From positions 1-64,000 of the IMG/VR virus record IMGVR_UViG_3300042521_003909: a DNA stretch of 64,000 bases. One strand, given 5' to 3'. This DNA comes from a virus. The notes below the pieces were generated by a model, which worked only from the letters and a program-made list of their open reading frames with translations, ran no database searches and was not told the origin of the DNA. Shown in pieces: positions 1,675 through 63,102 of the stretch. Made by a program: the position numbers and the translations under genes. Positions within the stretch are counted from its first letter, which is position 1, and every line of letters begins with the position of its first letter.

Positions 1675-2297
1675 TCAACATTAACAATTTTAGTGAATTA
1701 AAAATTAATTTTTTGATGAATAATGGTGATCCTGGATTCCATGGGGATGTAAGAATGATCGAAACTATGGATGACATAATTAAAAAATGCGATCATTTTA
1801 TAGAGACTGGTACTAGATACGGTAACACTCTTTTCTTTGTATCTAGAAATTACAACATTAAATGTTGGTCATGCGAAATAGGAGACATGACGCCGCAAAG
1901 CGTTTATAATCACGATAATGTTTATTTTCAACAAATTAAGTCTCCTGATTTTTTATATTTTTTAGAAAAAAAGCACTCACATATATGCGAAAAAACTTGT
2001 GTTTTTTATCTTGATGCTCATAGTGATACAGAATCAGTCTGGGAAGAAGAGCTTGCATTTATATTAAAGAATTTTAGTAAATTTTATATTGTTATAGATG
2101 ATTTCAATATTATGAATGATAGTTTTTCTCATAATGGTTATAGTTTAAGCGTAGCAAAATCAATAATAAAAAATAGAGCTAAAATATATGTACCAGATTA
2201 CAGAGAACAAACATCTGAGTTTCATTCTCTTACGGGATGGATTTTGATAACCAACATAGATGAATCGTTCAGAAACGTAAAGGAGCTATATGAGTAG
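1650..2297 (+). CDS. Class I SAM-dependent methyltransferase-like protein
   Basis: The protein has 215 residues. HFIETGTRYGNTLFFVSR (about residues 50-67) resembles motif I of Rossmann methyltransferases (E-x-G-x-x-x-G). FYLDAHSD near residue 120 fits an acidic post-motif II strand, and YIVIDDF near 146 fits another. The ATG at 1650 lies inside the upstream gene. A GTG at 1671 or ATG at 1714 are alternative starts, and none has a convincing Shine-Dalgarno. It probably methylates a glycan or small substrate made by this operon (inference). Confidence 0.65.
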   Translation: MEKFGAIVININNFSELKINFLMNNGDPGFHGDVRMIETMDDIIKKCDHFIETGTRYGNTLFFVSRNYNIKCWSCEIGDMTPQSVYNHDNVYFQQIKSPDFLYFLEKKHSHICEKTCVFYLDAHSDTESVWEEELAFILKNFSKFYIVIDDFNIMNDSFSHNGYSLSVAKSIIKNRAKIYVPDYREQTSEFHSLTGWILITNIDESFRNVKELYE

Positions 2298-2871
2298 ACA
2301 ATTAGGAAAAAAAGAAACTTTTGATTTTTGGTTTAATAACAGAGAGTTTGACGAACATGATCAGTTTGGCAGCAAATACTATGTTAATGAGTTTTACAGC
2401 AGAATAGTTTCAAAGCTAGACATACCTAAGAGTGGATTCATCGTAGTAGCTGGAACAAATAGAGCTGTTTCTTTTGAAATTTTGTGTGATATATTTGGAA
2501 AAGATAGGTGCATAGGGTTTGATTTGTATAATCCTAATGGTCACGAAAGAGTTGTAATAAAAGATTGCATGCTTTTGTCTAAAGAAGACGACATTCCCAT
2601 AGCATTTGCGCACAACGATGTTGGAAGTCTTTCTCATACTCCAGATGTAAAAATACACGCCCACAAATGGTTAACTAAAAATATTGTACCTGGTGGTTAC
2701 GTTATGGGGAACAATAACTTGAATAGAGCAAAATTTAAATTTGAAGAATTTATGAAAGAAAACGGTTTTGAAAATACTAATTTTTGTGAATTAGACAGCA
2801 GCAAATTTGACCTTTCTTCTTTTCCAATAGAGAGAATAGAGGGGTATATGCTTTCGAGAAAGAATTTTTAA
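2290..2871 (+). CDS. Predicted SAM methyltransferase-like protein
   Basis: The protein has 193 residues. The order is a helix-rich N-terminus, a hydrophobic strand (SGFIVVAGTNRAVSFEIL, about 48-65), then an acidic strand (CIGFDLYNP), as in Rossmann-fold methyltransferases. Motif I is imperfect because AGTNRA replaces G-x-G-x-G. It overlaps the previous gene by 8 bases and is followed one base later by the sulfotransferase. A degenerate methyltransferase or another nucleotide-binding fold are both possible. Confidence 0.55.
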   Translation: MSRQLGKKETFDFWFNNREFDEHDQFGSKYYVNEFYSRIVSKLDIPKSGFIVVAGTNRAVSFEILCDIFGKDRCIGFDLYNPNGHERVVIKDCMLLSKEDDIPIAFAHNDVGSLSHTPDVKIHAHKWLTKNIVPGGYVMGNNNLNRAKFKFEEFMKENGFENTNFCELDSSKFDLSSFPIERIEGYMLSRKNF

Positions 2872-2872
2872 C

Positions 2873-3502
2873 ATGAATGCCATAAACTTTGATAAGTCTA
2901 TTATGCAGCTTGTTTCTTATCCAAGAACCGGTAGTCACTATGTTCGCATAGTAATAGAAGACATTACAAAAAGGCCTTGTGCTCCTACTTCTTTTTTGGG
3001 TTTTGATAAATTTGAACCATGGGGGTTTCACCTGCATGACAGAATTGTGGGAAATGGAGATGAGGGCATAACTTCTGGATTTGATAAAGTAATATACTTA
3101 TATAGGAATCCAGTAGATACCATTTATTCACACATAAAATATCAGAATGAGAGCGATTGGAGATCAATAGCAGAAGAGTATAAAAATCATCTCATGAGAT
3201 GGCTTTACAATAATCACGATTGTAAAAAAATGATTTTTGTTAATTATGACATATTGCTAGATAAGCCGATAAAAGAATTTAAAAGAATTTTAGAATTTAT
3301 GGATTTCTCAGTCAATGATGATGATTTGCAAAAATCTATAAGCAGAACAACAATATCTAGAGTTAGGGCATTAACGGAAAAGTTAGATAATAAAGTAGTA
3401 AGTCAAGATCATTTTAATGGTCAGTACTTAATCGATAAGTCAATTTTTATTTCAGAAAATTCAGAAGAAATAAATAAAATGTTTCAAGGCATTTATAAAT
3501 AA
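2873..3502 (+). CDS. PAPS-dependent sulfotransferase
   Basis: The protein has 209 residues. SYPRTGSHYVRIVIE (residues 15-29) matches the 5'-phosphosulfate-binding loop (Y-P-R-S/T-G) of sulfotransferases. YLYRNPVDTIYSHIKY (about 75-90) matches the 3'-phosphate-binding R-x-x-x-D-x-x-x-S motif. Sulfotransferases move sulfate from PAPS to a hydroxyl or amine, here presumably a sugar of the glycan built by neighbouring enzymes. The length is typical for compact bacterial members. The gene abuts its neighbours with 0-1 base spacing. Confidence 0.85.
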   Translation: MNAINFDKSIMQLVSYPRTGSHYVRIVIEDITKRPCAPTSFLGFDKFEPWGFHLHDRIVGNGDEGITSGFDKVIYLYRNPVDTIYSHIKYQNESDWRSIAEEYKNHLMRWLYNNHDCKKMIFVNYDILLDKPIKEFKRILEFMDFSVNDDDLQKSISRTTISRVRALTEKLDNKVVSQDHFNGQYLIDKSIFISENSEEINKMFQGIYK

Positions 3503-42472: not shown

Positions 42473-42501
42473 TTGACGGCGCTAGCCTCTTGTGCTACCA
42501 T
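42473..42501 (+). promoter_or_regulatory. Sigma70-like promoter, near-leaderless
   Basis: TTGACG (42473-42478), a 17-base spacer, then TACCAT (42496-42501). The candidate starts ATG 42505 and ATG 42511 lie 3 and 9 bases after the -10. The upstream AAAGTAGCGTAC resembles the region ahead of the 40096 promoter. Confidence 0.6.
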
Positions 42502-42510
42502 ACGATGAGC

Positions 42511-42816
42511 ATGGCTAAGAACAGTACTCCTGAAGAACTCCTGAAAGACTTAGGCAGTAAGAATGGTTATGTCCGCTGTGCTGCTGCGGAGCATCCCAAT
42601 GCTACTCCCGAAGTCCTGCTGAAGGCAATCGAAGACAGGTCTGTTCGTGTGCGCCGCCATGCTGCCCGGAATCCCAATGCCACTCCCGAAGTACTCCTGA
42701 AGGCAATTGGAGACAAGGATTGGTCCGTTTGCAGCGCTGCTCAAGAGAGTTTACAAAACGATCCCCTTCTTCAACTCCAAGTCTCTGCTCTGAAGGCACA
42801 GAAAGCCGCCTCTTAA
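42511..42816 (+). CDS. LRV-repeat protein, two repeats
   Basis: The protein has 101 residues from ATG 42511; ATG 42505 would add two. A cap (STPEELLKDLGSKNGYVRCA) is followed by two 26-residue leucine-rich-variant repeats (HPNATPEVLLKAIEDRSVRV and NPNATPEVLLKAIGDKDWSV). The C-terminal cap is ESLQNDPLLQLQVSALKAQK. The same caps flank five repeats in 43107 and three in 44222. The number of repeats therefore varies by unequal recombination among paralogues. The function is unknown. Confidence 0.8.
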   Translation: MAKNSTPEELLKDLGSKNGYVRCAAAEHPNATPEVLLKAIEDRSVRVRRHAARNPNATPEVLLKAIGDKDWSVCSAAQESLQNDPLLQLQVSALKAQKAAS

Positions 42817-42835
42817 GAAAATTAAGGAAAACAAA
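42813..42835 (+). repeat. TTAAG junction element, copy 1
   Basis: TTAAGAAAATTAAGGAAAACAAA starts in the stop codon of the two-repeat LRV gene and ends at the ATG of the next gene. The GGAAAA part could act as a ribosome-binding segment. Confidence 0.75.
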
Positions 42836-43105
42836 ATGACTAATAAAATCAAGACCAAGAAGCCGATCAAGTACCACTACATTTTCTTTTACAGCCGTGG
42901 AGATTATTTTGATATTTCTCATGCACTTGAAGATTTTTACCAGCCATATTTTTGCGGGAGTGGCTGTGGAGGGAGTGGATTTGATGTCCACTTTTACTGC
43001 ACCGCCAAGGAATACAAGCGCATTGTAGCGTTTGCCCGTCGCAATTATGGCAAGATCAAGAGCGTCATTCGTTATACCGATGAAGCCTTTAATGGAGATA
43101 GCTGA
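42836..43105 (+). CDS. Hypothetical protein, paralogue of 40130-40420
   Basis: The protein has 89 residues with the same fold as 40130: KYHYIFFYSRGDYFDISHAL, GCGGSGFDVHFYCTAKEYKR and a charged end. Both copies keep H-Y-x-x-x-Y-x-x-G-D-Y near the N-terminus and F-D-(I/V)-H-(L/F)-Y-C-T near the middle, likely structural or ligand positions. The ATG follows the TTAAG junction element. Confidence 0.7.
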   Translation: MTNKIKTKKPIKYHYIFFYSRGDYFDISHALEDFYQPYFCGSGCGGSGFDVHFYCTAKEYKRIVAFARRNYGKIKSVIRYTDEAFNGDS

Positions 43106-43106
43106 C

Positions 43107-43643
43107 ATGGCTACTTATACTCCTGAAGAACTCCTGAAAGACCTAGACAGCAATGATCGCGTTGTCCGCTATTGTGCTGCCGGGAATCCCAATGCCTCTC
43201 CCGAAGTCCTGTTGAAGGCAATGGAAGACGATTATAAGGAAGTTCGCTGGAAGGCTGCCGATAATCCTAATGCCACTCCCGAAGTCCTGATGAAGGCAAT
43301 GAAAGACAAGGAATACAGTGTCCGCTATGCTGCTGCCGGGAATCCCAATGCCACTCCCGAAATTTTGCTTAAGGCAATTGGAGACAAGAATTCGGATGTC
43401 CGCTATAATGCTGCGGAGAATCCCAACGCCTCCCCTGAAGTCCTGCTGAAGGCAATTGGAGACAGGTTTGTTAAGATCCGTGAGGCTGCTGCGTATCATC
43501 CCAATGCCACTCCCGAAATTTTGCTTAAGGCAATTGGAGACAAGAATTCGGATGTTCGCAGCGCTGCTCAAGAGAGTTTACAAAACGATCCCATTCTTCA
43601 ACTCCAAGTCGCTTCTCTCAAGACACAGAAAGTCGCCTCTTAA
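43107..43643 (+). CDS. LRV-repeat protein, five repeats
   Basis: The start is set to ATG 43107 (one base after the preceding stop); the protein has 178 residues. A cap TPEELLKDLDSNDRVVRYCA is followed by five 26-residue LRV repeats of the type NPNASPEVLLKAMEDDYKEV and then a shared end cap ESLQNDPILQLQVASLKTQK. The 78-bp repeats are similar at the DNA level, so copy number can change by recombination. The hydrophobic Leu and Arg positions fit a right-handed solenoid. Confidence 0.85.
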   Translation: MATYTPEELLKDLDSNDRVVRYCAAGNPNASPEVLLKAMEDDYKEVRWKAADNPNATPEVLMKAMKDKEYSVRYAAAGNPNATPEILLKAIGDKNSDVRYNAAENPNASPEVLLKAIGDRFVKIREAAAYHPNATPEILLKAIGDKNSDVRSAAQESLQNDPILQLQVASLKTQKVAS

Positions 43644-43661
43644 GAAAATTCGGGCAAACAA
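43640..43661 (+). repeat. TTAAG junction element, copy 2
   Basis: TTAAGAAAATTCGGGCAAACAA begins in the stop codon of the five-repeat LRV gene. Here it is followed by about 95 AT-rich bases rather than a start codon, so the element is not simply a leader of the next gene. Confidence 0.8.
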
Positions 43662-43757
43662 GTAATTGTACCTCAATTACGCACACATCACAATATGTAG
43701 ATAATCGTACCTTAAAAAACTTAAAAATTACTCTTAAACCTTAAAAACCTTTCACCC

Positions 43758-44198
43758 ATGCCCACATCACAAAAAGAACAGCCTCCGTATCTGCGTTACC
43801 CAGAGGGAGTAGACGTTTCTGTGACGGTGTACAGGAATCTCCACAAGGCGTGTTGGTCGGTGAAAGACAGGTACACAGGAAAGGTGATTGCCCTTCTGGA
43901 GGAAGTTCTTCTGTCTGGTGGAGTAACTTTTCATGTTTCTTCAGCAGGGCGCGAACGTGTTCTCGCCCAAAGGGTGAAGAATGTTCACGCAGGAGTGCGT
44001 GGGCGGTGGAAAACTGCCAAGATTCCTCCGCTCTTTACCCTTGACAGTCCACGAAGAGTACGCTACAATCCGTATACTCATCCGTACTTCACCGATGAGG
44101 ATACGTCACCTGTCTCTTCTGCTCACTCCGTTCACTTTCGTCGTGATGGCTCCGTATGGGCAACGGGAATCCCCCACACCTCCAATGACGCATCTTAA
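43758..44198 (+). CDS. Conserved hypothetical phage/plasmid protein
   Basis: The protein has 146 residues. VTVYRNLHKACWSVKDRYTG (about 22-41), VSSAGRERVLAQRVKNVHAG (about 60-79), RRVRYNPYTHPYF (about 98-110) and HFRRDGSVWATG blocks match a family found in phages and mobile elements, often annotated hypothetical. The conserved Arg/His residues and the Y-N-P-Y motif suggest an enzyme or nucleic-acid binding fold, but I do not know the function. It has no obvious SD. Confidence 0.75.
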   Translation: MPTSQKEQPPYLRYPEGVDVSVTVYRNLHKACWSVKDRYTGKVIALLEEVLLSGGVTFHVSSAGRERVLAQRVKNVHAGVRGRWKTAKIPPLFTLDSPRRVRYNPYTHPYFTDEDTSPVSSAHSVHFRRDGSVWATGIPHTSNDAS

Positions 44199-44218
44199 GA
44201 AAATTCGGGCAGGAAAAC
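44195..44218 (+). repeat. TTAAG junction element, copy 3
   Basis: TTAAGAAAATTCGGGCAGGAAAAC starts in the stop of a non-LRV gene (43758-44198) and is followed by the next LRV start. The element therefore is not part of the LRV gene itself. Confidence 0.8.
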
Positions 44219-44221
44219 AAG

Positions 44222-44602
44222 ATGACTACCAAGACTACCAATAAACTCCTGAAAGACCTAGACAACAAGGATGAAGATGTCCGCAGTTTTGCTGCCAAGC
44301 ATCCCAATGCCACTCCTGAAGTCCTCCTGAAGGCAATGGGTGACGAGTATTGCTGGGTCCGCTATTATGCTGCCAAGAATCCCAATGCCACTCCTGAAAT
44401 TCTGCGGAAGGCAATGGAGGATGAAGATGAAGGTATCCGCAGTGGTGCTGCCCTGAATCCTAATGTCACTCCCGAAATCATGCTGAAGGCTCTGGAAGAT
44501 AAGATTGAGCAAGTCCGCAGTGCTGCTCAAGAGAGGTTACAAAAGGATCCCATTCTTAAACTCCAGGTCGCTGCTCTGAAGGCACAGAAAGCCGCCTCTT
44601 AA
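44222..44602 (+). CDS. LRV-repeat protein, three repeats
   Basis: The protein has 126 residues. A cap (TNKLLKDLDNKDEDVRSFAA) is followed by three 26-residue LRV units (HPNATPEVLLKAMGDEYCWV, NPNATPEILRKAMEDEDEGI and NPNVTPEIMLKALEDKIEQV) and the shared end cap RLQKDPILKLQVAALKAQK. It is close to 42511 and 43107 but keeps more acidic helices. The start overlaps the TTAAG element region (GGAAAACAAG). Confidence 0.8.
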   Translation: MTTKTTNKLLKDLDNKDEDVRSFAAKHPNATPEVLLKAMGDEYCWVRYYAAKNPNATPEILRKAMEDEDEGIRSGAALNPNVTPEIMLKALEDKIEQVRSAAQERLQKDPILKLQVAALKAQKAAS

Positions 44603-44620
44603 GAAAATTCGGGCAAACAA
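44599..44620 (+). repeat. TTAAG junction element, copy 4
   Basis: TTAAGAAAATTCGGGCAAACAA, identical to copy 2, spans the stop of the three-repeat LRV gene and reaches the ATG of the next gene (44622). Confidence 0.85.
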
Positions 44621-44621
44621 A

Positions 44622-45722
44622 ATGACTACCACAAACGACACCACCCAAGAGAAAACTCCCACCACAAAGGAGTTTCTCAATATCTTAAAGGGAATGAATG
44701 AAGATCACCACATGTGGGTTGCACAACATCCCCGTGTGCCCCCAGAAGTCCTTAGGAAAATCCTCAAGTACTCCACCTTTTCATTGAAGGTTCGTGCTGC
44801 TGCTGCCAAGAATCCCAATGCAACTCCTGAAGTTCTCATGGAAGGCGTCAAGAGGTACGATACGACCCTTCCGTGTCTGGAGAATCCCAATGCGAATGGG
44901 GATGTGTTCTCCAAGGCAATGGAATCACGGAGAATTTGCTCATACGACATGTGCGCCATCCTGAAGCACCCCAATGTCACCTTCGACTTTCTCCTCCGTT
45001 CTCTGAAGCATCCGAATCCCGAAGTGGGCTTGTCGTTAGTCTATGCTATTTCAGGTATCCGTAATCCATTCCGCAAGGAGAAGTTCAAGCCCATTGTTGA
45101 AAAAGCTCTCAAGAGCAGACTTAAGCAAACGCGCTACATTGCGAATAGTGTTCTCCAAGACTGGGAGAAACAAGGGTATCTTCACAAACTGGATCGTAGT
45201 GAATTCGACAACGATACCCAAATGCTCCAATACGATCTCCGGCGTTTCCAGAGGAATGAGTACAACCGCAGTGGATGGAACATTCCAAAAGAACTTCTCA
45301 GCGCAATCGCTTCAGAAGCAGCCACAGAAAGCGTTCTTCTCAGCATCGTGAGTGGGCCGCAATACCATGTGTGGATCAGAAGGGCAGCACTGGAGGGTCC
45401 AAATGTCACGGAGAGGGTGCTGATGGAGGCAGCGTCACACTTTCCCAGCCTTAGCGTAGACGATTGGAAAACCCCCTATGACATCCTGAATCATCCCAAA
45501 TGCACCGCAGAGGTTGCTCGCAAGGTGGGGGATGGATGCGATCATCACATTCTCAATTACATCATCCAGCACGTAAAGCGCATGGGAATCATGGCTCCCA
45601 CCCATCCCAATTTAGTCCTGTTGGAGGAGGTTTTGAGGACCAAAACTCCAGACCCCTTCGGACCATCGCTCACTTTCTGCATCCGTAACGACTATGAGCA
45701 CCCATACCCCCCTCCCTCTTAA
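44622..45722 (+). CDS. Large LRV/HEAT repeat protein
   Basis: The protein has 366 residues. The repeats are more degenerate than in the small paralogues: QHPRVPPEVLRKILKYST, NPNATPEVLMEGVKRYD, NPNANGDVFSKAMESR, HPNVTFDFLLRSLKHPN and later GPNVTERVLMEAASHFP and HPKCTAEVARKVGDGC. A non-repeat central part (about 160-215) is rich in aromatic and charged residues. It is the largest of the cluster and probably a scaffold with one or two interaction surfaces. The role is unknown. Confidence 0.75.
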   Translation: MTTTNDTTQEKTPTTKEFLNILKGMNEDHHMWVAQHPRVPPEVLRKILKYSTFSLKVRAAAAKNPNATPEVLMEGVKRYDTTLPCLENPNANGDVFSKAMESRRICSYDMCAILKHPNVTFDFLLRSLKHPNPEVGLSLVYAISGIRNPFRKEKFKPIVEKALKSRLKQTRYIANSVLQDWEKQGYLHKLDRSEFDNDTQMLQYDLRRFQRNEYNRSGWNIPKELLSAIASEAATESVLLSIVSGPQYHVWIRRAALEGPNVTERVLMEAASHFPSLSVDDWKTPYDILNHPKCTAEVARKVGDGCDHHILNYIIQHVKRMGIMAPTHPNLVLLEEVLRTKTPDPFGPSLTFCIRNDYEHPYPPPS

Positions 45723-59259: not shown

Positions 59260-59616
59260 GGGGCTGAAATGGTTTCGATTGCGAAAGGGTTATTCGATAC
59301 TGCACGACGAGGCTGATGGGCAACTCGTAAAAAGCCGATCAAAACAACAACCGCCAACGAATCGTTGATGGCTGTCGCTGCTTAAGCAGCAAAGACTTTA
59401 GACGGTGTGGCGCTTGCCCCTAAAGTCTCGTTAAGAGTGCCAATCAGCGTACTGCGAAGCCTTAGCGTACAAGGCGCTGAAAACTATATTATGAACTCTA
59501 AGGCTATCAGAGGACTCATGGTACGAGGACTCTTCTGATGGACGGACTCGTACCTAGCGTGGAGAAGGTTCGATAGCAGTTTCGTCAACACAGGGGTTCG
59601 ACTCCCCTCGGCTCCA
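59260..59616 (+). ncRNA. ssrA: tmRNA
   Basis: It is 357 bases long. The 5' end GGGGCTG pairs with CGGCTCC at the 3' end, with two G-U pairs. The TTCGACT T-loop is at 59598-59604. The tag frame ends KTTTANESLMAVAA-stop (59341-59385), with the A-A C-terminus recognised by ClpXP-type proteases. The resume codon cannot be fixed by eye; the frame is open for several codons upstream. CCA is not encoded. It rescues stalled ribosomes. A terminator follows at 59626. Confidence 0.93.
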
Positions 59617-59929: not shown

Positions 59930-60088
59930 GATTTCGTATCACTTTCTTTCTGAGTGGATATTAGTAGGTGGGAGATTAGCTCAGCGGTCAAGAGCAGGCG
60001 ACTCTCTCATTCTTTGACAATCGAATAGGTAAACATTTCCCATTTTTAACTGGGACTTTAGCTCAGCGGCCTAGAGCTGACGACTCAT

Positions 60089-60861
60089 CTGAACCCTCAA
60101 TGAAGGTTCAAATGATAAAGTACGATAATAACTACCGTGCTTTATCATGGAGGTTCATTATGGGTAACAGAAAGTCAGTAAGAGATTTGAATGGGTACAG
60201 GATTATCTACTTGCCAGATCATCCAAAGGCAATGAAAACAGAAAACTGGGACGGGTATGTATATGAACACATAGCCGTAGCAGAAACTTGCCTAGGAAGA
60301 CCGTTACAGGTAGATGAGGTTGTTCATCACTTAGACGGTGATCGGACAAATAATAGATCCTGCAATCTTCTTGTTATCACAAGAGGAGAACATTCAAAGT
60401 TAGAGAACTGGCTTTCATGTGGTGCGCCGTCATCGAAAGTTGACGGATTGAATCGGATGAAATCAGGGAAACCTAAGTGGAAAAAAGCGGAGTATTGCAA
60501 TATCTGCAACAAGACTCTTCAAGGTAAGCAAAAGAACTGCTGCTCAAAAGAGTGTAGTGATTTGTTTTGCCGAAAAGTGACGCGTCCATCGAAAGATGAG
60601 TTGCTTGAAGATTTAAGTTCAAAGTCGATATTGTCCATAGGCAAAAAGTACGGTGTTAGCGATAATGCTGTTCGCAAATGGATGAAGCGATACGAAATCC
60701 ATAAGGCAATCCTGAGCCAAGTCACCGATACATCGGTGAAAGGTGCAGAGACTACTGGAGAGGTTCAGTCCTCTTAATCACCAGATTAGCGTCCGACACC
60801 TAAGGTGACAAAACTAAGGTGATGATATAGTCCAAGGAGTAGCGAAAGTTACACAAACTTG
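60089..60861 (+). mobile_element. Group I intron with HNH endonuclease gene
   Basis: It is 773 bases long. The 5' splice site follows U60088, and the last base is G60861, as required for group I introns. P7-like strands AGAGACTAC (about 60748-60756) and ATATAGTCC (about 60826-60834) and other core-like stretches near the 3' end are visible; the HNH gene fills the 5' half. The insertion after position 36 in a tRNA anticodon loop is a known group I niche. Confidence 0.85.
60160..60777 (+). CDS. Intron-encoded HNH homing endonuclease
   Basis: The start is set to ATG 60160 (SD GGAGG 6 bases upstream); the protein has 205 residues. YVYEHIAVAETCLGRPLQVD, then EVVHHLDGDRTNNRSCNLLV, gives the HNH core. 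YCNICNKTLQGKQKNCCSKE is a C-x-x-C...C-x-x-x-C zinc unit. The C-terminal LSIGKKYGVSDNAVRKWMKR is an HTH. It should cleave intronless alleles to spread the intron. The 3' end of the gene overlaps the intron's catalytic core. Confidence 0.9.
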   Translation: MGNRKSVRDLNGYRIIYLPDHPKAMKTENWDGYVYEHIAVAETCLGRPLQVDEVVHHLDGDRTNNRSCNLLVITRGEHSKLENWLSCGAPSSKVDGLNRMKSGKPKWKKAEYCNICNKTLQGKQKNCCSKECSDLFCRKVTRPSKDELLEDLSSKSILSIGKKYGVSDNAVRKWMKRYEIHKAILSQVTDTSVKGAETTGEVQSS

Positions 60862-61050
60862 AATCGTCTGGTCACAGGTTCGAATCCTGTAAGTCCCATT
60901 AGGAAAATGTTTACTTGTTTGATTTTAAAGATGAGATTGCGCTTGGTCGTGGGTTCGAACCCCACATCTCCCATTATGCGTAAAAGCATCAAACTACTAC
61001 CTTGGAAAATGTCTCTGAGGCTGCATGAGGAAACCTACGAAGGAAAGAAA

Positions 61051-62166: not shown

Positions 62167-63102
62167 GTGGCAGCAAGGACGACCATGCCCATCCGACACC
62201 TCGGTTATGCCTGTCAGAACATGACTCTTGGGGCTACGAAGCCCGCCTCCAAGCGTGTCTTTACGGACAGAACGCTGCGGATGGATGGTTTCAGCATCCG
62301 CAGGGTCAATGAACTCGCACTTTCCAACTCACGCGATCTTCTGAAGATCATGTGGTGGAATGTCGAGAACGGCATTCACTTCTTCCGCATTGGTTCGGGA
62401 ATGTTTCCTTTCATGGATCACCCGGAACTGAAGTACGGGATTGACGATCTTGCCACCGCACACACCATCAAGGGTGTGTTGGCAGGAGTTGGGGAACTTG
62501 CTCGTAAGAACAGCATTCGACTGTCGATGCACCCGGGACCTTACACATGTCTTGCATCTCCTGACGAGTCTGTTGTTGACAAGTCATTGCTGTGCATGGA
62601 GATGCACTCGCTTGTGGGCGATCTGCTTGGGATGGATGACTTCCCAATCAACATCCATATGGGTGGCGTCTATGACGGCAAGGAAGCATGTGCGGAGCGT
62701 TTTGTCCACAACTTCTCACGACTTTCTGAAGGAGTCAGGCGCAGAATGACCCTTGAGAACGATGACAAAGAGGGCATGTGGACAATGCGCGATCTGCTTC
62801 CTGTTCACGAAAAGACAGGCATTCCACTTGTTCTTGACATTCATCATCACTCTCTCAACTCAGGTGGTGATGATCTGAAAGTTGCTGCTGACATTGCTCT
62901 TTCAACTTGGGGTGAAAAAACTCCAAAAGTTCACTATAGTGAACCAAGAGAGGGCAGCCGTCCACAAGCACATGCTGACTTCATTGTGAATGAGATTCCT
63001 GAACTTTGTTCAGTCAGACAATATGATGTGATGATTGAGGCAAAGCAGAAGGAACTTGCCCTTCTCAAATATCGAAACCTCTTTTTCCCCCCAACCGCCT
63101 GA
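62167..63102 (+). CDS. uvdE: UV damage endonuclease (UvdE/UvsE-like)
   Basis: The protein has 311 residues from GTG 62167; ATG 62185 is an alternative. HLGYACQNMTLGATKPASKR at the N-terminus, NGIHFFRIGSGMFPFMDHPE, RLSMHPGPYTCLASP, FPINIHMGGVYDGKEACAER, MTLENDDKEGMWTMRDLLPV and VLDIHHHSLNSGG are the UVDE TIM-barrel metal-binding blocks (His, Glu, Asp). The enzyme nicks DNA 5' of UV photoproducts. The length matches bacterial UvsE. It starts right after leader element copy 6. Confidence 0.93.
   Translation: MAARTTMPIRHLGYACQNMTLGATKPASKRVFTDRTLRMDGFSIRRVNELALSNSRDLLKIMWWNVENGIHFFRIGSGMFPFMDHPELKYGIDDLATAHTIKGVLAGVGELARKNSIRLSMHPGPYTCLASPDESVVDKSLLCMEMHSLVGDLLGMDDFPINIHMGGVYDGKEACAERFVHNFSRLSEGVRRRMTLENDDKEGMWTMRDLLPVHEKTGIPLVLDIHHHSLNSGGDDLKVAADIALSTWGEKTPKVHYSEPREGSRPQAHADFIVNEIPELCSVRQYDVMIEAKQKELALLKYRNLFFPPTA

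Follow-up and report, generated by a model that had tools for sequence, protein, structure and literature searches.

The stretch of viral DNA considered here, called the window below, comprises bases 1-64,000 of the 83,922-base IMG/VR record IMGVR_UViG_3300042521_003909 (genome label G000), and at 59970-60973 it contains one complete transfer RNA (tRNA) gene nested in the anticodon loop of a second tRNA gene. Both tRNAs are of the CAU type. The outer tRNA, which we take to be Ile2-like, is divided into a 5' half at 59970-60004, whose acceptor strand pairs with 60966-60972, and a 3' half at 60940-60973. The inner tRNA, presumably elongator-Met-like, is itself interrupted by a group I intron with an HNH endonuclease gene and is flanked by two long complementary arms. 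The genes, exons, arms and joint of the window described in this text all lie on the plus strand. This paper describes the nested locus and its relatives and discusses how the insert may have come to lie inside a tRNA gene.

The outer halves are identical, over 35 of 35 and 34 of 34 positions, respectively, to an intact tRNA(CAU) that stands at the same site, after the gene for transfer-messenger RNA (tmRNA), in three related loci (L003, L004 and L006); the intact gene is named Met(cat) by ARAGORN. In these relatives the five bases ATAAT replace the whole of 60005-60939, that is, the outer anticodon loop of the window is without its own ATAAT, and the gap between the halves amounts to 935 nucleotides (nt), of which the last three, TTG at 60937-60939, form the joint between the helix and the 3' half. 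An earlier sequence-only reading had recognized the nest, which is confirmed by the empty sites, and had described the outer tRNA as split, which is also right; its gap of 932 bases is to be corrected, and the outer gene is not merely split, since ATAAT has been lost. Furthermore, two near-identical contigs from two data sets, 3300042368 and 3300044616 (G001 and G003), align to the record of the window over 60,000 bases at 99.987% identity and over 48,941 bases at 99.998%, respectively, so the nest is not the artefact of a single assembly. The intron-free composite of 231 nt has a fold z of -8.0 in the window and -9.0 in a nested relative, G006. In its minimum-energy fold the acceptor stem and T arm of the outer tRNA are formed and 40 pairs surround the inner tRNA; neither the D arms nor the acceptor-D part of the inner tRNA take canonical cloverleaf form. 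A weak tRNA match at 59970-60042 (73 nt, 19.1 bits, below the cut-off) was judged to be due to chance, and a weak tmRNA match at 60872-60966 (13.8 bits) likewise fell under the cut-off.

The inner tRNA consists of a 5' exon at 60052-60088 and a 3' exon at 60862-60898, identical to those of G006 at 35 of 37 and 33 of 37 positions, respectively; the 5' exon also has a counterpart in another relative, G005. After removal of the intron the anticodon loop reads CTCATAA. The intron occupies 773 nt (60089-60861) between U36 and A37, and because its ends were placed by the rule of a U before the intron and a G as its last base, the junctions ...CTCAT/CTG (60088/60089) and CTTG/AATCG (60861/60862) are a consistency check only. 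The length of 773 nt is also obtained by ARAGORN with introns allowed, which labels the anticodon ttg. The group I model RF00028 matches 60405-60854 with 82.7 bits (cut-off 50), and it gives 84.1 bits in G005 and 83.6 bits in G006. The HNH gene lies at 60160-60777 within the intron, where the longest open frame begins at 60100; its product matches PF13392 HNH_3 with 34.1 bits (cut-off 24.8, E 2e-8) and phrog_15471 (E 4.8e-32). In G006 the frame is open too (202 amino acids), with 93% amino acid identity to that of the window, and the intron of G005 is without an HNH gene. The sequence-only reading of the inner segment as a tRNA(CAU) split by an HNH-bearing group I intron is upheld. A megablast search with 24 kilobases (kb) of the window gave no DNA-related cultured phages, and blastn with the locus matched 10 records, every match being within one stretch of the intron.

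The inner tRNA is enclosed by a helix between a 5' arm at 60005-60041 and a 3' arm at 60902-60936, which form 34 pairs, four of them G-U; the pairing is interrupted by one mismatch and two single-base bulges. The duplex is predicted at -36.6 kcal/mol, against a mean of -11.7 (standard deviation 2.9) and a best value of -23.8 for 1000 shuffles, so that 0 of 1000 were as stable; the pairing over some 34 positions noticed earlier is thus real. In each of three phages (G000, G005 and G006), 0 of 1000 shuffles equalled the stability of the helix. The helix of G005 has 24 pairs and no G-U pair, and that of G006 has three G-U pairs among 34. Comparison of the three phages gives two-sided changes with pairing kept at helix positions 5, 19 and 26, position 5 being present only in G000 and G006, where A-U is changed to G-C. 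Positions 22 and 24 have one-sided changes and are paired in all three phages; at position 12 two phages have the pair and G006 a bulge, and G000 has a bulge at position 14 and G005 a broken pair at position 17. Further two-sided differences at pairs 29, 30 and 33 hinge on the alignment of G005 and were left out of the count. Moreover, the five substitutions between G000 and G006, taken as a set, stabilize the duplex from -36.6 to -40.7 kcal/mol, which was equalled by random placement in 4% of 5000 trials. With only three distinct sequences and this 4% result, the covariation signal is moderate; at that strength, it argues that the helix is maintained at the RNA level, as had been proposed.

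The two arms behave differently: the 5' arm is nearly invariant from TTCTTTGACAA onward, while the 3' arm drifts via G-U pairs. The 5' arm contains TTCTTTGACAA (60010-60020) as part of TCTTTGACAATCGAATAGG (60011-60029), a boxA-like sequence, and it seems that the motif itself is the cause of the conservation. Twenty-four stretches of the genome collection contain the 19-nt core of the motif. Ten of these loci were scanned with Rfam, and in five the motif lies 50-218 nt upstream of 16S or 23S ribosomal RNA (rRNA); the other five have no rRNA nearby, and several of the 24 look protein-coding. This position upstream of rRNA is that of boxA. Helix and motif together may form an rrn-type, leader-trailer-like unit around the inner tRNA. 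Since G005 has the helix and the inner tRNA without the outer halves, the helix belongs to the flanks of the inner tRNA, and a reading of it as an arm of the outer tRNA itself is rejected on this ground; its earlier interpretation as an extension of the outer tRNA is not supported. A DNA palindrome serving a recombinase is less likely in view of the G-U pairs (4 of 34 in the window, 3 of 34 in G006) and of the wobble drift in the 3' arm with the 5' arm kept. The boxA-like arm motif was found in 37 viral stretches: L002, L005 and L007, and 34 others (L012-L045) with TTTGACAANCGAATAGG, for which kinship or chance are both possible. Outside the phage group, a weak test, which detects the second arm of G005 and misses the wobble-paired one of the window, gave no second arm within 2 kb at fewer than 3 mismatches. 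In L038, TTTGACAANCGAATAGG at 2266-2282 stands directly before a tRNA-Arg.

The relatives of the locus, whose records may be fragments, present several allelic states. Besides the three loci with the intact outer tRNA, the nested state occurs in G000, G001 and G003, and also in G006 (74,888 bases, 73% identity over 13 kb aligned to G000) and in G007, of which only the 5' part is visible. In these two phages the outer tRNA is not Ile2-like; it is a copy of the inner tRNA, its halves in G006 being identical to it over 35 of 35 and 35 of 35 positions, and its loop is without four bases, the outer anticodon stem being kept in G006. The same insert therefore lies in the anticodon loops of two different outer tRNAs, as read from the sequences. 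The 5' joint, GGCGACTC followed by TCTC, is common to G000 and G006/G007, whereas the 3' joints differ (TTG in the window and GTT in G006). A third state is found in G005 (L007, 73.6% identity over 7.2 kb aligned), which agrees in gene order and possesses the arms, the inner tRNA and the intron but neither outer half. Just upstream of 1584 in L007, close before its 5' arm, stands GGGAC, conceivably what is left of an outer tRNA that was deleted, though too short to judge. The empty sites support insertion, one of the options named in the sequence-only reading. That reading had also held that homologous loci lacking one half would speak against it; such loci do occur, G005 having neither half.

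In addition, the insert has moved sideways between phages. It is about 90% identical in G000 and G006, while the genomes align at 73%. At four-fold degenerate sites the HNH genes of the two differ at 8 of 70 positions, and in the part upstream of the intron core, counted separately because the gene overlaps that core, at 3 of 25; the corresponding figures for core genes are 70 of 97 (UvdE), 80 of 149 (an ATPase) and 80 of 145 (a VWA protein). Among the 23 open reading frame pairs compared, three others were low (0.011, 0.072 and 0.119); their coordinates place them antisense to core genes, for which reason they were disregarded, and the next-lowest divergence is 0.375. The noncoding arms are identical at 42 of 47 (89%) and 35 of 38 (92%) positions, whereas the 300 bases on each side of the outer tRNA agree at 49% and 54%. 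The insert is thus far more alike than the core genes and the flanks, which indicates lateral movement of the arms together with the inner tRNA and its intron. Several features of a homing element are present at the locus: an intact endonuclease gene, empty and occupied alleles, and a transfer later than the split of the genomes.

A parallel arrangement exists in the phiKZ-type phages, which are the source of the closest cultured-phage relatives of the HNH protein (tblastn, 192 records matched; 39.5% identity, E 3e-30). In phiKZ the HNH gene (PHIKZ296) follows the tRNA PHIKZ_t02, and both lie between the halves of another tRNA-Asn, which is not annotated in the phiKZ record examined. ARAGORN with introns allowed joins the outer tRNA at 2269-3118 of the phiKZ stretch (L158) around a 774-nt insert. 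This mode makes doubtful calls in phages (e.g., L164, L168, L169 and L170), and it was trusted for phiKZ only beside an intact paralogue: the phiKZ halves are identical to the intact tRNA-Asn of the same stretch at 36 of 37 and 36 of 39 positions and together make up its full 76 bases. Inner and outer tRNA both have the anticodon GUU. The tRNA and HNH insert recurs in 9Ps-7B, PA1C, BRkr, phiHQ and phiLBG22, and in these phages the outer halves decay: the anticodon stem is changed in 9Ps-7B, the 3' strand of the anticodon is lost in PA1C, BRkr, phiHQ and phiLBG22, and the acceptor is broken in phiLBG22. In Psa21 there is a 5' outer remnant and no 3' half was found, so that this phage also belongs with the loci that lack a half. 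More generally, a tRNA lies at most 161 nt upstream of the match and on the same strand in 12 of 18 loci of HNH homologues, which were picked from the match lists, mostly from the top and not at random; nine of the 12 are phiKZ-type, so they are not independent. A second copy of the HNH gene stands beside a tRNA-Thr in BRkr (L159:2333-3049) and phiLBG22 (L171:1833-2546), as if tRNA and HNH gene moved as a pair; neither sequence patterns nor ARAGORN gave outer halves at these copies, and the BRkr stretch was also inspected by eye. A long variable arm is a trait of Ser, Leu and Tyr tRNAs. PHIKZ_t02 (L158:2315-2401) combines such an arm with an Asn (GUU) anticodon arm and may have arisen as a chimera joined there.

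The insert at 60005-60939 is probably a composite homing element that carries a replacement tRNA and to which the outer tRNA has been sacrificed. The unit would combine a tRNA gene and the stem for its processing with an HNH-encoding group I intron, and it would be placed inside a tRNA gene with the same anticodon letters. The HNH endonuclease likely recognizes and cuts an anticodon-arm sequence common to CAU tRNAs; the arm sequence GGCGACTCATAATCGCTYGG is shared by the intact tRNA of G002 and the inner tRNA of G006, and the inner tRNA of the window has CGACTCATAATCG of it. Repair from an insert-bearing phage, with the outer halves as homology, would then copy the composite into the cut gene. 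This is the simplest account of an HNH family that often accompanies tRNA genes and of an anticodon-arm core common to the inner and outer tRNAs. The recipient tRNA would be destroyed and the inner tRNA would stand in for it; because the tRNA supplied by the insert is complete and has the anticodon letters of the lost one, the phage would lose little or nothing. In the transcript the paired arms would make a stem of the leader-trailer kind, whose 5' strand contains an rrn-type boxA, the intron would splice itself out, and host ribonucleases would free the inner tRNA, probably RNase III acting on the stem and RNase P together with 3' trimming enzymes acting on the tRNA. The outer halves would be by-products, decaying over time. 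In the window a Met-like tRNA stands in an Ile2-like one, a match of letters only, which is perhaps due to an off-target landing.

Several observations weigh against this account. The inner (Met-like) and outer (Ile2-like) tRNAs of the window are different isoacceptors, so the rescue would be incomplete there, and G006 and phiKZ fit better. The joints are short of five loop bases in the window and four in G006, so the insertion is not a clean copy at one point. The mobility of the HNH gene would be explicable by the intron alone, and the undecayed outer halves in the window and G006 could signal function, not recency. As to the last point, the Leu-taa, Lys and Glu tRNAs are also identical between G000 and G002, and since three other tRNAs are equally unchanged, the undecayed halves say little. 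The short boxA core, moreover, is not rare: there are 11 occurrences in the window with one mismatch allowed, where 5.5 are expected, and two exact ones. No Rfam group I intron was found at the curated cut-off in the examined stretch with the phiKZ insert, and the helix comparison is confined to the window group, so the phiKZ nest is similar and not the same. Finally, six of the 18 HNH loci are without a close upstream tRNA by ARAGORN.

The same facts may be accommodated in other ways. The outer body could be kept on purpose as a natural tRNA scaffold, which caps the base of the helix, defines the ends through the RNase P cut and CCA, and shields the inner precursor from exonucleases; laboratory tRNA scaffolds are a model for such a protective outer body. 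The unaltered outer halves of the window and G006 speak for this, as do the two-sided change from A-U to G-C at helix position 5, in the stem adjoining the outer anticodon stem, and the stable folding of the whole composite (z -8.0 and -9.0). A recent insertion, however, likewise leaves the outer stems intact, G005 keeps the helix and the inner tRNA with no outer tRNA, and the outer halves decay in the phiKZ relatives 9Ps-7B, PA1C, BRkr, phiHQ, phiLBG22 and Psa21, so purposeful retention of the outer body appears unlikely. Similarly improbable is a one-off accident, in which an intron-bearing tRNA gene with its stem landed by illegitimate recombination without help of the HNH protein and then spread by ordinary phage recombination, which is known to be frequent. 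The loss of four or five bases at the joints would suit such an event, and the intron by itself accounts for the HNH gene. A single accident is nevertheless difficult to reconcile with the like nest of the phiKZ-type phages, which has a related HNH gene and matching inner and outer anticodons, and with the presence of the insert at the same loop position in two different outer tRNAs.

The remaining explanation, put forward in the sequence-only reading as a trans-splicing scaffold, is that the split tRNA is rejoined in RNA: the helix would hold the outer halves together, the inner segment would be cut out, and a ligase would make a functional outer tRNA. The helix does continue the outer anticodon stem, and archaeal split tRNAs reportedly exist, encoded as separate halves. 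Excisions were enumerated within the limit of 17-nt anticodon arms; 0 of 16 restore CAU in G000 and 0 of 16 in G006, although some yield a CUC anticodon in both. In addition, the 3' joints are not conserved (TTG and GTT), and no match to RNA_ligase (PF09414) or RtcB (PF01139) was obtained in seven of seven phage records, which are possibly incomplete, while the host could supply a ligase; a search for the T4 Rnl1 family also gave no match, but its control likewise gave none and the search is uninformative. Together with the absence of outer halves from G005, these results leave rejoining very improbable.

If the insert is a homing element with a replacement tRNA, its meaning goes beyond this locus. 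A homing element must not kill the gene that it invades; for introns and inteins the solution is splicing, and the insert here appears to bring a replacement gene. Engineers reportedly arrived later at the same replacement logic in home-and-rescue gene drives. It is conceivable, and we propose it tentatively, that there is a class of such home-and-rescue elements, in which one phage HNH family invades anticodon loops carrying a tRNA with the same anticodon letters; nests would then have arisen at least twice (CAU here and GUU in the phiKZ type), and the elements would spread and reshuffle tRNA repertoires without an intron's splicing. This would explain part of the gain, swap and duplication of tRNA genes in phages. 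Extra tRNA genes can also counter tRNA-cutting defences (PMC13096335). Two model loci are at hand, one of them in the widely studied phage phiKZ.

The nest lies between two syntenic genes. The upstream syntenic anchor is the tmRNA gene at 59260-59616, identified by both ARAGORN and RF00023, and the downstream anchor is the UvdE gene at 62167-63102 (PF03851, E 1.5e-64), which served to gather relatives of the locus. Of the 54 UvdE loci, L104-L109 are of this phage group, and the boxA pattern was present on the UvdE strand in 0 of the 48 others; six of those 48 (L134, L138, L139, L144, L147 and L148) gave ARAGORN intron calls, which were taken as doubtful. The phage group has its own tmRNA, found in the window and also at L103:4-346 and L051:1007-1349, with the tag ANESLMAVAA in G000 and ANSFRMAA in G006. 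Apart from this, positions 42500-44700 of the window hold repeated segments about 75-83% alike, which give multiple self-matches in BLAST comparisons of the near-identical contigs.

With respect to known systems, the sequence-only reading had stated that no nested arrangement of this type had been described. Among the papers listed by title and abstract in searches of the open literature, most subscription papers being outside this scope, there was none describing one tRNA inside another in a phage, and to that extent the statement stands; it must be qualified by phiKZ, which holds an unannotated one, with a tRNA (PHIKZ_t02) and a related HNH gene (PHIKZ296) between the halves of a tRNA of the same anticodon. 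That locus differs from the present one in having no Rfam group I intron in the stretch examined and outer halves that decay in the relatives. SegB belongs to the GIY-YIG family. Like the SegB-type homing endonucleases of the T-even tRNA regions, the HNH enzyme is a phage endonuclease encoded beside tRNA genes; SegB cleaves inside tRNA genes, shows enrichment close to tRNAs and brings about the amplification of tRNAs or the tRNA-bearing segment, and in the accessible text on it no tRNA-in-tRNA nesting is described (PMC13096335). A split phage tRNA called by ARAGORN is also on record in the Vibrio phage pVa5, whose tRNA-Stop is interrupted by about 2.5 kb, and was regarded by its authors as a possible artefact; no inner tRNA is mentioned in the available part of that report (PMC5746245). 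The available part of a paper on phage tRNA pseudogenes describes no nest (PMC5418858).

The locus also provides a case of a phage tRNA gene with a group I intron, as judged by the RF00028 match, whereas every phage intron seen by 2014 interrupted a protein-coding gene (PMC3984707). By its sequence it would also represent an rRNA-style boxA stem around a tRNA. In the system described in PMC10250234, rRNAs lie between the strands of leader-trailer helices; the leader contains boxA, and the helix is cut by RNase III. The present locus resembles them in the long complementary flanks around a stable RNA and in the boxA in the leader, and it differs in that a single phage tRNA is flanked, that the boxA-like motif lies in the paired strand itself and that the unit is known from sequence alone. 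With regard to the intron itself, the nearest counterpart is bacterial: Bonocora and Shub in 2001 are said to have described a group I intron in a bacterial tRNA(fMet) whose endonuclease is specific for the anticodon region. In both systems the anticodon loop of a CAU tRNA is interrupted by a group I intron with an endonuclease gene inside, the anticodon region being the presumed target; unlike the bacterial intron, the element described here appears to have moved a whole tRNA with its flanking stem into another tRNA, in a phage.
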